NCBI RefSeq assembly: GCF_002214605.1
Contig: NZ_CP015193.1
Location: 1,344,978-1,408,977, forward strand
DNA: 64,000 nucleotides
Reading direction: 5' to 3'
DNA from: Thermococcus chitonophagus
Lineage (GTDB): Archaea > Methanobacteriota_B > Thermococci > Thermococcales > Thermococcaceae
The notes below the pieces were generated by a model. The model saw only the letters and a program-made list of their open reading frames with translations, was not told the origin of the DNA and made no database searches. Below are positions 28,871-32,952 of this stretch, one piece after another (position 1 is the stretch's first letter; each line of letters starts with the position of its first letter). The position numbers were made by a program, and so were the translations under genes.

Positions 28871-29554
<684 letters not shown>

Positions 29555-29675: not shown

Positions 29676-31001
29676 TTAGCTCTCAAAGTTTTCAACGAGT
29701 CTAGCTCCTTTCTCCGTAAGCCTATAATATATCCTCTTCCCCCTCCTATAGGCTTCTTCGATGAGACCTAACTCCAGGAGCTCCTTAATATGCTGATGAA
29801 CAGCTTGATACTTAAGGGGTTTTCCAAGAGCTTTCCATATTTCGTACGCATACATTTCAGTGTCCTTAAGAACCTTAAGGATGTCTAGCTTTGTTCCACC
29901 AATTGAGAACTTCTCCCTCCCGCCTCCTCCAGTTTTTAATCCTGATCCAGTGACAACAAGAACGGGCTTATCCCCTTTCTCAATGAAACCCTCCTCAACT
30001 AACTTTAAAAGGGCGGGCATGACAACCGCCGACGAAAGTTCAGCAAAGATGCCTTCATTAGCCAGCAACTTCTCTCCTAAGTCTATATCTTCCTCACTGA
30101 CGATAACTGCTGTCCCATTGCTCTCCTTTATTGCCTCTATTGCCCGAGATTTCATTATTGGATTTCTAACGTAGAGACCCAGGGCTTTAATCTCCTTGCA
30201 ACTCTTTTCAACTCCTAGGATTTCAGCAGCTATTGGATTGCACTTTTCAACTTGAACGGCAATAAGACGAGGCATCTCCCTAAGGACACCGATTTTAGAT
30301 AACTCCTTGAACCCCTTATAAATTGAGTATAAGTAACTTCCACTACCCGTAGGAACAATAACGTGGGTAGGAGTCATCTCTTCCCACAATTCATACGCTA
30401 TCGTCTTCTGTCCTTCGAGACCTACGATGTTATCTTCAGGAGTTACGTTGTAGAGGCCATTAAGCCTGGCAAGCTCCCTTGCGTATTCAATTGCATCATC
30501 AACACTCTCCCCATACCTAATTATCCTCGCTCCAAACGCAATCATCTGTATGAGCTTCCCCTTATCCACCTTTTTGGGAACTACAACGAAGGCTTCCTTT
30601 TCAGCCCTTGCAGAATATGCAGCAACAGAAGCTGCAGCATTTCCATCACTAGCTATAATAAATCCATTGGTAGTGTAGGGAAGACCATAAGATACTGCAA
30701 CCGTTGCAAGCCTGTCTCTGAAAGAGCCAGTTGGATTTCTCGTTTCATCTTTTATGTACACATCAATACCCAACTTTTCACTTATCCTAGCCTTTATAAG
30801 AGGAGTTCCTCCCTCCCTAAGGGAGATAATCCTTTTTACAGGAGGTAAAAGCTCCTTGTATCTCCAAACTCCAGGGATTCTCCTTCGCCACTTTCTCACG
30901 TCAACCGAAGAGTAGTCATAGGTTATTTCTAGTTCCTGCCCACAAATGCAAAAAGGAGGGATTACCTCTACATATTCCCTTCCACATCTTGGGCACTTCA
31001 T
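29676..31001 (-). CDS. Threonine-synthase-like protein lacking the PLP lysine, fused to a C-terminal winged helix
   Basis: A 441-residue protein. Residues 1-25 form a zinc ribbon (CPRCG...CICG) as in threonine synthases; residues 45-355 have the fold-type II PLP domain with ASDGNAAAS (118-126) and the phosphate loop VPTGSGS (216-222). The Schiff-base position in NPTGSFRDR is Arg95 (codon AGA at 30717-30719) where enzymes have SFKDR, so normal PLP catalysis is not expected. Residues 365-441 are a winged helix (YQAVHQHIKELLELGLIEE...RIYYRLTEKGARL). A ligand-sensing DNA-binding regulator derived from threonine synthase is the likeliest reading, though unproven. It lies four bases after aCPSF1, probably in one transcript. 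Confidence 0.82.
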   Translation of the reverse strand: MKCPRCGREYVEVIPPFCICGQELEITYDYSSVDVRKWRRRIPGVWRYKELLPPVKRIISLREGGTPLIKARISEKLGIDVYIKDETRNPTGSFRDRLATVAVSYGLPYTTNGFIIASDGNAAASVAAYSARAEKEAFVVVPKKVDKGKLIQMIAFGARIIRYGESVDDAIEYARELARLNGLYNVTPEDNIVGLEGQKTIAYELWEEMTPTHVIVPTGSGSYLYSIYKGFKELSKIGVLREMPRLIAVQVEKCNPIAAEILGVEKSCKEIKALGLYVRNPIMKSRAIEAIKESNGTAVIVSEEDIDLGEKLLANEGIFAELSSAVVMPALLKLVEEGFIEKGDKPVLVVTGSGLKTGGGGREKFSIGGTKLDILKVLKDTEMYAYEIWKALGKPLKYQAVHQHIKELLELGLIEEAYRRGKRIYYRLTEKGARLVENFES

Positions 31002-31005
31002 ACGG

Positions 31006-32952
31006 TCACCTCAGCCTTATAGTGTCAAGATTGTTTGGAGCCCTCGTAGAGAGGCCGAACTTCTTGTGTATGCTTGTCGCAAGATCTAGACACTTCTGTG
31101 GCTCTCCGTGTACAGTTATGACTCTCTCTGGCCTTGGTCTGACCTTTGCAACATAGTTCATTAACTCTCTCCTATCGGCATGACCTGAAAAGCCATCTAT
31201 CGTGTGAACCTCCATGTTCACCTTTATGACCTCAGTTCTGCCTTCCTCACCTATCATGGGTATTTCCCTTGCTCCATTTTGAACCTGTCTACCCAACGTT
31301 CCCTCAGCCTGGTAGCTCACAAAGATTATGGCATTCTTAGGATCTGGGGCCAGTTGCTTGAAGCACTCAACGCTTGGCCCTCCAACCAGCATACCCGAAG
31401 AGGCTATTATTATAGCGGGCTCCTTGCTGTCTATTATGTCTTGCCTCTCCCTGGAATTAGCTACCGGATGGAAGATCTCGCTTAGGAACGGATTGTAGCC
31501 CTCCTTGAATATCTGCTCTCTGAGCCTCCTGCTTAGGTACTCTGGATAAGCAGTGTGAATGGCAGTAGCCTCCCAGATCATGCCATCTAAGTAAATTGGA
31601 ACATCAATTCCACCTATCCTTGCGTACTCCTCGAGAACCATCATAACTTCCTGGGCCCTTCCCACGGCCATTGCTGGAATTAATACTTTTCCTCCTCTCT
31701 TTATTGTTTGATGGATAACCTCTATAAGCCTTTTCTCAGCCTCTTCTCTTGGCATCTGAATGTCATTGCTTCCACCATACGTTGACTCCATAATTAGGGT
31801 TTCAAGCCTAGGGAATTTTGCATTTGCCGGCTCCAGGAGCCTAGTGGGTATGAACTTAAAGTCTCCTGTAACTGCTATATTATGAAGGCCGTTTCCTATG
31901 TGAAGATGAACTATTGCAGAACCAAGAATATGACCAGCGTTGTGAAGCGTCAACCTGATATCTGGGGAGATATCTCTAACCTCTCCATAATCTAATGTTA
32001 TAGTATGCTTAATGACTTCTTTGATATCCCTAGTTCTGTAAAGAGGTTCTTGGCCGTTACTCTGCTGTATCTCAATGAAGTCTTTCTGAAGGAGAACCAT
32101 CAAGTCTCTAGTTGGAGGAGTTGTGTATATCGGCCCATCGAACAGATTATACCTAAACAAATAAGGGAGCATTCCGCTGTGATCAAGGTGAGCGTGAGTT
32201 ATTATTATCGCATCTAGGAGACCCTCTTTAAGGACGTATTGGAACTCTGGAGCGTCGAAGTGGGGGAATGCCTTGTAGGGGTCATTCATAGTAGCAACGT
32301 TAACACCAAAGTCTACGAGAACAAAACTCTCATCAGTTTGAACCAAGAGAGCACTCCTACCAACTTCCCTAAACCCACCAAGGCCGGTAATTCTAATCCA
32401 TCTGCTCTTATACTCGGGCTTCCTGTAAATGTTCCTCCCAACCTGTCTTAGGAACTTCCTCCTGTCTTTGCTCTCGGTCTGAAGGATCTGCCTTATGGAA
32501 TATATAGTCTGACTTTGGAGGGGAGGCGTTCTAACAACCCTAGGAGCCCACCTAACCTTTTGGGTTATCATTCTAAGGGTCTCGCCGTTTTTTCCTATAA
32601 CCAGACCGGGCTTCTTCGCCTCAATAAGAACCTCCCCAACGGAGGGATCGAAAGAGATGTTAGTTATCTCAGCCTCCTTAGGGACAATCTCATATATCAT
32701 TTTCTCAGCTTCTTCAGGAGGAAGCAACACGTCAGGATCGGGCCTTATGCTTATTCTTTTCTTAAGAACCTTAGCTAAATCCTTAATAAGCTCGCCATTT
32801 TTCATTATTGCTTCAGGGTTTTTAACGTAAATAACTAGTTCAGGACCTTCAAATTCTATCTCGGTAATCTTGGCTTCCCTGGGAACCATTTGATTCACTA
32901 TTGCCCTAATATCCTTGAGTATCTGATCAACTTGGGTTTCCCTCTTGATCAA
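31006..32952 (-). CDS. aCPSF1, KH-domain beta-CASP ribonuclease (transcription termination factor)
   Basis: A 648-residue protein: two N-terminal KH domains (KKPGLVIGKNGETLR visible near 115), a metallo-beta-lactamase domain with the HAHLDH zinc motif and GDFKFIP, a beta-CASP domain with ASSGMLVGGPS, and the final SGHADR and HGEP motifs. It is the archaeal CPSF73 homologue acting as endonuclease/exonuclease at U-rich 3' ends and in transcription termination. It starts at TTG 32952, preceded by GGTGG at four bases, 12 bases after psmB, so psmB, aCPSF1 and the threonine-synthase-like gene are probably co-transcribed. Confidence 0.95.
   Translation of the reverse strand: MIKRETQVDQILKDIRAIVNQMVPREAKITEIEFEGPELVIYVKNPEAIMKNGELIKDLAKVLKKRISIRPDPDVLLPPEEAEKMIYEIVPKEAEITNISFDPSVGEVLIEAKKPGLVIGKNGETLRMITQKVRWAPRVVRTPPLQSQTIYSIRQILQTESKDRRKFLRQVGRNIYRKPEYKSRWIRITGLGGFREVGRSALLVQTDESFVLVDFGVNVATMNDPYKAFPHFDAPEFQYVLKEGLLDAIIITHAHLDHSGMLPYLFRYNLFDGPIYTTPPTRDLMVLLQKDFIEIQQSNGQEPLYRTRDIKEVIKHTITLDYGEVRDISPDIRLTLHNAGHILGSAIVHLHIGNGLHNIAVTGDFKFIPTRLLEPANAKFPRLETLIMESTYGGSNDIQMPREEAEKRLIEVIHQTIKRGGKVLIPAMAVGRAQEVMMVLEEYARIGGIDVPIYLDGMIWEATAIHTAYPEYLSRRLREQIFKEGYNPFLSEIFHPVANSRERQDIIDSKEPAIIIASSGMLVGGPSVECFKQLAPDPKNAIIFVSYQAEGTLGRQVQNGAREIPMIGEEGRTEVIKVNMEVHTIDGFSGHADRRELMNYVAKVRPRPERVITVHGEPQKCLDLATSIHKKFGLSTRAPNNLDTIRLR

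Follow-up and report, generated by a model that had tools for sequence, protein, structure and literature searches.

The described systems closest to the protein considered here include the bacterial PdxR/MocR factors, with a sensor derived from a PLP enzyme (a fold-type I aminotransferase domain) fused to an N-terminal winged helix (wHTH) of the GntR type. In Archaea, the fusion of an enzyme domain to an HTH controlling a vitamin pathway is represented by RbkR (riboflavin kinase and HTH) and ThiR (HTH and ThiN). Fold-type II PLP enzymes or their relatives are also involved in gene control, as CymR-CysK in B. subtilis and CYSL-1 in C. elegans, but these are separate proteins that act by protein contact and carry no fused DNA-binding domain. 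The PdxR regulon comprises pdxST, pdxK and pdxU (PMC5320631), S. pyogenes has a PdxR-PdxKU locus (PMC11619246), and MocR factors have been reported to be absent from Archaea (PMC5320631). RbkR and ThiR regulons are both listed for P. furiosus in a study that does not refer to pdxS or to pyridoxal in its main text (PMC10746257), and none of the terms searched for is matched in the main text of an inventory of P. furiosus transcription factors (PMC6316755). No earlier description of the protein, nor of an archaeal B6 counterpart, was found in the literature searched, outside which most subscription journals lay.

The window, by which we mean the whole 64,000-nucleotide (64-kb) stretch of Thermococcus chitonophagus DNA that was analyzed, contains the following gene, domains and neighbors:

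29676..31001, minus strand: ORF of 441 aa, starting MKCPRCGREY; zinc ribbon, fold-type II (threonine-synthase-like) PLP domain and C-terminal winged helix; its product is the proposed B6 regulator
30942..30995, minus strand: Cys4 zinc ribbon (C3/C6/C18/C20), identified from the sequence
29946..30827, minus strand: PALP domain (PF00291), residues 59-352, Pfam E 4.8e-70
29682..29897, minus strand: winged helix, residues 369-440, from a Pfam HTH_45/PadR-like match and the AF2 model
31006..32952, minus strand: upstream gene aCPSF1 (KH and beta-CASP), 4 nt from the regulator ORF
28871..29548, minus strand: downstream neighbor, a uridylate kinase-like gene (pyrH), identity from sequence reading

The product of this ORF is proposed to be a transcription factor that responds to vitamin B6, and most probably a repressor with PLP as co-repressor. 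This proposal can be held with good confidence on the fusion, the conserved loss of a lysine, the operators, the regulon and the co-occurrence of operator and regulator, all of which are evident at the sequence level; no binding, expression or ligand data stand behind it. Like PdxR/MocR, the protein would be a PLP-enzyme-derived sensor fused to a winged helix, but it does not have the MocR/PdxR architecture (N-terminal GntR wHTH and fold-type I domain): its domain is of fold-type II with another residue in place of the Schiff-base Lys, and its PadR/HTH_45-like wHTH stands at the C-terminus. The PdxR-like trait lies in predicted operators at genes of B6 synthesis and uptake (pdxS and PF07155 promoters), an effect of PLP on DNA binding being inferred. 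From RbkR and ThiR it differs in enzyme fold, ligand and regulon. With ThrC (NF004170/PRK05638, TIGR00260) it has the fold, the ancestry, the zinc ribbon and the contacts to the PLP ring and PLP phosphate in common, but it lacks the catalytic Lys and the presumed substrate-phosphate site, carries a fused wHTH, and coexists with a genuine ThrC encoded elsewhere.

The fused architecture is supported by both profile and structure comparisons. HTH_45 is matched at residues 372-440 (E 2.8e-7), and in an AlphaFold2 model (mean pLDDT 89.6) residues 369-440 form a wHTH of their own, preceded by a disordered or flexible linker (356-365). The top Foldseek matches with this model are threonine synthases (e.g. 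2zsj, E 2e-27), and the best structural matches have 34-37% identity over the PALP domain. In the zinc ribbon, C6, C18 and C20 are found in every sequence covering them in the Thermococci orthologue alignment and C3 in 53/54. The preliminary description had the winged helix as not known to it from any threonine synthase; the fused wHTH stands, but the NCBIfam model NF004170/PRK05638 "threonine synthase" (442 positions; 799.6 bits against a curated cut-off of 421) covers the entire protein, so the fusion is already present in databases under an enzyme name. That naming is probably a misannotation extending across many archaeal genomes.

The family was found in all six Thermococcales genera searched, being missing from part of Thermococcus, and a scan of genome contigs added full-length fusions from Bathyarchaeia, from a separate Thermococci lineage (f2) and from one Desulfurococcales MAG. 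No full-length orthologue lacks the winged helix, not even those of Bathyarchaeia at ~40% identity. In a FastTree phylogeny the fused proteins stand apart from ThrC (support 0.86). One regulator gene (G077:C1:1996288-1997567, L068) is split into two overlapping frames (residues 15-148 and 140-440), either a frameshift or a pseudogene; the PF07155 operator of that genome is intact.

The active site was numbered against T. thermophilus ThrS, with K61 equivalent to Arg95, in a family alignment that includes 17 ThrC rows:

30711..30737, minus strand: KDETRNPTGSFRDR / NPTGSFRDR, residues 89-97, in which Arg95 replaces the Schiff-base Lys
30639..30650, minus strand: SDGN, residues 118-121; N121 is invariant in the family alignment
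30336..30347, minus strand: GSGS, residues 219-222, the PLP-phosphate loop; GSGS/GSGG across the family
30636..30638, minus strand: A122, at the position of ThrS T88; presumed substrate-phosphate contact lost
30435..30443, minus strand: T187/P188/E189, at the positions of ThrS N154/S155; presumed substrate-phosphate contacts lost
30420..30422, minus strand: G194, at the position of ThrS R160; presumed substrate-phosphate contact lost in all members

The replacement of the PLP lysine by Arg95 (codon AGA, 30717-30719), with SDGN, GSGS and zinc ribbon retained, had been the starting observation of the preliminary description, and reading of the ORF together with Pfam confirms it. The PLP contacts of ThrS are kept in the family: N87, the O3' contact in ThrS (N121, invariant), T317 (T351) and the Gly-rich phosphate loop. 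An alignment of orthologues, proposed there as a check, gives Arg in 53/54 distinct Thermococci orthologues, so Arg95 is not a sequencing error; the sole exception (L029/L060, genome G002) has Lys. The 58 Bathyarchaeial sequences have 48 Arg, 8 Lys, 1 Ser (L118) and 1 Met (L104), and the 8 with Lys form one clade. Orthologues with this lysine and threonine synthase activity had been named as an observation that would refute the idea of a regulator, and the lysine does occur (8 Bathyarchaeia, 1 Thermococcales), but the sequences concerned are without the presumed phosphohomoserine contacts and several come with an operator. Since Lys-bearing members (L145, L150, L158 and G002) retain operators, the regulator did not come about through lysine loss; the Arg may hold PLP while preventing the pocket from reacting.

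The second change concerns T88, N154, S155 and R160 of ThrS, which we take to be the contacts of the phosphate of the substrate, phosphohomoserine, and which were reportedly described by Omi et al. in 2003. T, N, S and R stand at these positions in 15/17 ThrC rows, while the family has A/L/M, T/S, E and G/V/A/T/S, Lys-bearing members included. A genuine thrC lies elsewhere in the T. chitonophagus genome, inside an aspartokinase-thrB-thrC-asd cluster. With these residues replaced family-wide and a normal thrC elsewhere, it is very unlikely, as far as can be judged without activity data, that the protein is a threonine synthase.

Alignment of PF07155 promoters from Thermococcales genomes with and without the regulator placed a palindrome, TCAAGTTNNAACTTGA, only in regulator-bearing genomes. 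In a whole-genome search of 94 Thermococcales genomes, its exact form was found at 30 sites in 23 genomes (22 before PF07155, 6 before pdxS, encoding PLP synthase, and 2 in the 3' end of moeA), and a backward-pattern control found 1 site in the same 94 genomes. The two moeA sites (L310:2571 and L312:361), upstream of serS in two related genomes, are orthologous and probably coding sequence. Sites of at least 14/16 stand in the PF07155 promoters of 48/59 genomes with the regulator versus 0/12 without, a score of 14 being reached by 0.06% of shuffled sequences; part of the 11/59 promoters below 14 result from wrong start anchoring (G011, G070). Scores of at least 13 are found at pdxS in 18/18 genomes with the regulator, T. 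chitonophagus included, versus 1/12 without. That lone exception is a 73% complete MAG, from which the regulator may just be missing. The genomes are related, so that these counts are not independent tests. On the PF07155 protein tree, two places lack the regulator and each of them lacks the operator as well, which suggests two losses of the regulator, the node of the second (G058) being weak (0.65). The PF07155 gene itself is present in 51/51 near-complete genomes with the regulator versus 12/23 without, and all 10 near-complete regulator-bearing genomes lacking a pdxS match keep it.

In T. chitonophagus the pdxS promoter carries GCAAGTTTTAACTTGA (a site also written TTTATATGCAAGTTTTAACTTGA), one of only two sites in the genome with at most one mismatch, and the PF07155 promoter carries TCAAGTTTTAGCTTAA. 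The second such site, at 1006343 and with one mismatch, overlaps an allophanate-hydrolase-like ORF at its start. A two-mismatch scan of this genome returned 19 sites versus 14 in the backward control and hence is not specific; the analysis drew only on sites that have one mismatch at most or are backed by phylogeny. The sites either overlap the TATA box or come directly behind it, which puts much of each site upstream of the expected transcription start. This fits a DNA operator better than an RNA element, and the position suggests repression. In Thermococcus, operator and TATA box run into one another, so that the TATA box accounts for part of the motif match and scores come out inflated. The gene's place directly after aCPSF1, also pointed out in the preliminary description, is real but gives no clue to function: the order aCPSF1-regulator-pyrH is a Thermococcales neighborhood only. 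Autoregulation in Thermococcales was rejected, because the gene starts so close behind the aCPSF1 ORF and no site of at least 14/16 is found in the 64-kb window.

In Bathyarchaeia, the gene after the regulator is usually a PF07155 ECF S component (Pfam 3.5e-30; PF07155 cluster in 47 loci). PF07155/COG4720 is the family of PdxU and PdxU2/HmpT, both known as S components for B6 (PMC9997740), and for the Bathyarchaeial as well as the Pyrococcus S component the closest PDB match is HmpT (4hzu_S; 1.7e-11 and 2.1e-20), in line with a B6 transporter. Of the HmpT ligand positions (numbering per PMC4860826), compared by eye in the alignments, E41 is kept in Bathyarchaeia and is Asp in Pyrococcus, W76 is kept in Pyrococcus, and H84 is replaced by Lys. 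A HypE/ThiL-like AIRS protein often comes next (cluster c3; 27 loci, e.g. L102:8204-9229); by analogy with PdxR-PdxKU, it could be a non-orthologous pyridoxal kinase. A 24-bp palindrome, ATAGTATAGTTNNAACTATACTAT, with the same core as the Thermococcales site but longer, stands upstream of PF07155 in 45/47 of these loci (at least 16 matching positions), and hardly any sites with at least 17 are found elsewhere in the 594 kb of locus sequence. The operator lies downstream of the regulator, between it and the transporter; upstream of the Bathyarchaeial regulators, a de novo search for dyad motifs found only a TATA-like signal. The palindrome tracks the transporter and not the regulator, as it is kept despite intervening sequence in L114, L116 and L144 and also accompanies a transporter encoded on the opposite strand (L158) and a second transporter copy (L147, 9791). 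It precedes a Bathyarchaeal pdxS in L306. In the f2 lineage, a TATA-proximal TACAAG...CTTGTA repeat stands ahead of the PF07155 gene. Across ~38 non-Thermococci genomes searched, pdxS was found in only 4 and PF07155 in all except the Desulfurococcales MAG, so that most of them would depend on uptake, with the reservation that MAGs are incomplete. Adjacency, operators and their co-occurrence with the protein lend support to the earlier idea of an enzyme-derived transcription regulator, albeit by comparison of genomes alone.

In the proposed mechanism, the dead threonine-synthase-like domain would bind PLP, or a PLP-amino acid adduct, non-covalently, and the state of the ligand would set the arrangement of the two C-terminal winged helices in an inferred dimer. 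This dimer would bind the palindrome of its lineage (Thermococcales: TCAAGTTNNAACTTGA; Bathyarchaeia: ATAGTATAGTTNNAACTATACTAT), which sits on or just past the TATA box of two targets, pdxST for PLP synthesis and the gene for the PF07155 (PdxU/HmpT-family) ECF transporter; plentiful PLP would then block transcription of both. DNA binding by the protein, PLP as its ligand and the sign of regulation are likewise inferred. End-product repression with PLP as co-repressor is the simplest reading of a dead PLP pocket, winged helices on a dimeric scaffold and operators over promoters of synthesis and uptake genes. The preliminary description had left the ligand among an amino acid, a phosphoester and PLP; the near-restriction of the operator to pdxS and the PF07155 transporter gene narrows it to vitamin B6/PLP, and the degraded substrate-phosphate site makes a phosphohomoserine sensor unlikely. 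It could be that the PLP-amino acid external aldimine is sensed instead of PLP itself, B6 and an amino acid being reported together. With no lysine present, there could be room in the pocket for a free PLP-amino acid Schiff base, the S-(D/N)-G-N loop for the carboxylate is retained, and the B. subtilis threonine synthase structure 6cgq has PLP-Ala bound; with a regulon of B6 genes only and the operator on no amino-acid gene, this remains possible but unlikely.

ThrC ancestry could also point to a sensor of threonine, serine or phosphohomoserine that regulates amino-acid genes, and in ~10 Bathyarchaeia (L108, L109, L115, L123, L124, L125, L128, L133, L147 and L151) a genuine thrC is indeed divergent from, and upstream of, the regulator. 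The regulator-thrC intergenic regions of these ~10 genomes, however, hold no operator of at least 17/24, no exact Thermococcales site stands at a thr gene, and every member has lost the presumed contacts of the phosphohomoserine phosphate. A threonine biosynthesis regulon was rejected on the first two grounds, and the amino-acid sensor as a whole is improbable; the divergent thrC without an intervening operator leaves another role possible.

As direct binding by the regulator has not been shown, a different transcription factor of the same distribution could bind the palindromes, the protein merely travelling along. We give this only a small chance, given that the regulator adjoins the operator-bearing transporter in Bathyarchaeia and that the co-occurrence is also found in Thermococci, a different phylum. 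There is a slight chance that the regulon serves a thiamin precursor (HMP) imported by the ECF S component. In T. chitonophagus (L172:1854-3422) PF07155 is divergent from thiL with a promoter region common to both, the same adjacency is found in Pyrococcus, and HmpT was first named for HMP. However, the second operator target is pdxS, the sensor domain has a PLP fold, and pyridoxamine was identified bound to HmpT as its cargo (PMC4860826). That the protein is an active PLP enzyme (threonine synthase or other lyase) with an incidental wHTH, as the NCBIfam name with its 800 bits and the nine Lys-bearing members might imply, is scarcely credible with Arg, Ser or Met in almost all members, the presumed substrate-phosphate site lost in all, a separate ThrC present and operators co-occurring with the regulator gene.

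The preferred reading, a PLP-co-repressed repressor, is a prediction that can be tested with one protein and one 16-bp site. It seems probable that this is the first transcription factor derived from a fold-type II PLP enzyme, a lysine-less pseudo-threonine-synthase predicted to sense PLP non-covalently and to repress PLP synthesis and B6 import in Thermococci and Bathyarchaeia. If true, the name "threonine synthase", given automatically in well over a hundred genomes, would have to be corrected, and vitamin B6 would be linked to an archaeal ECF S component and possibly to a new B6 kinase. A second PLP-enzyme fold would have been turned into a transcription factor, here by losing the catalytic lysine, and Archaea, from which MocR/PdxR are reported absent, would have a vitamin B6 regulator of their own, an independent solution to the job done by PdxR in Bacteria.
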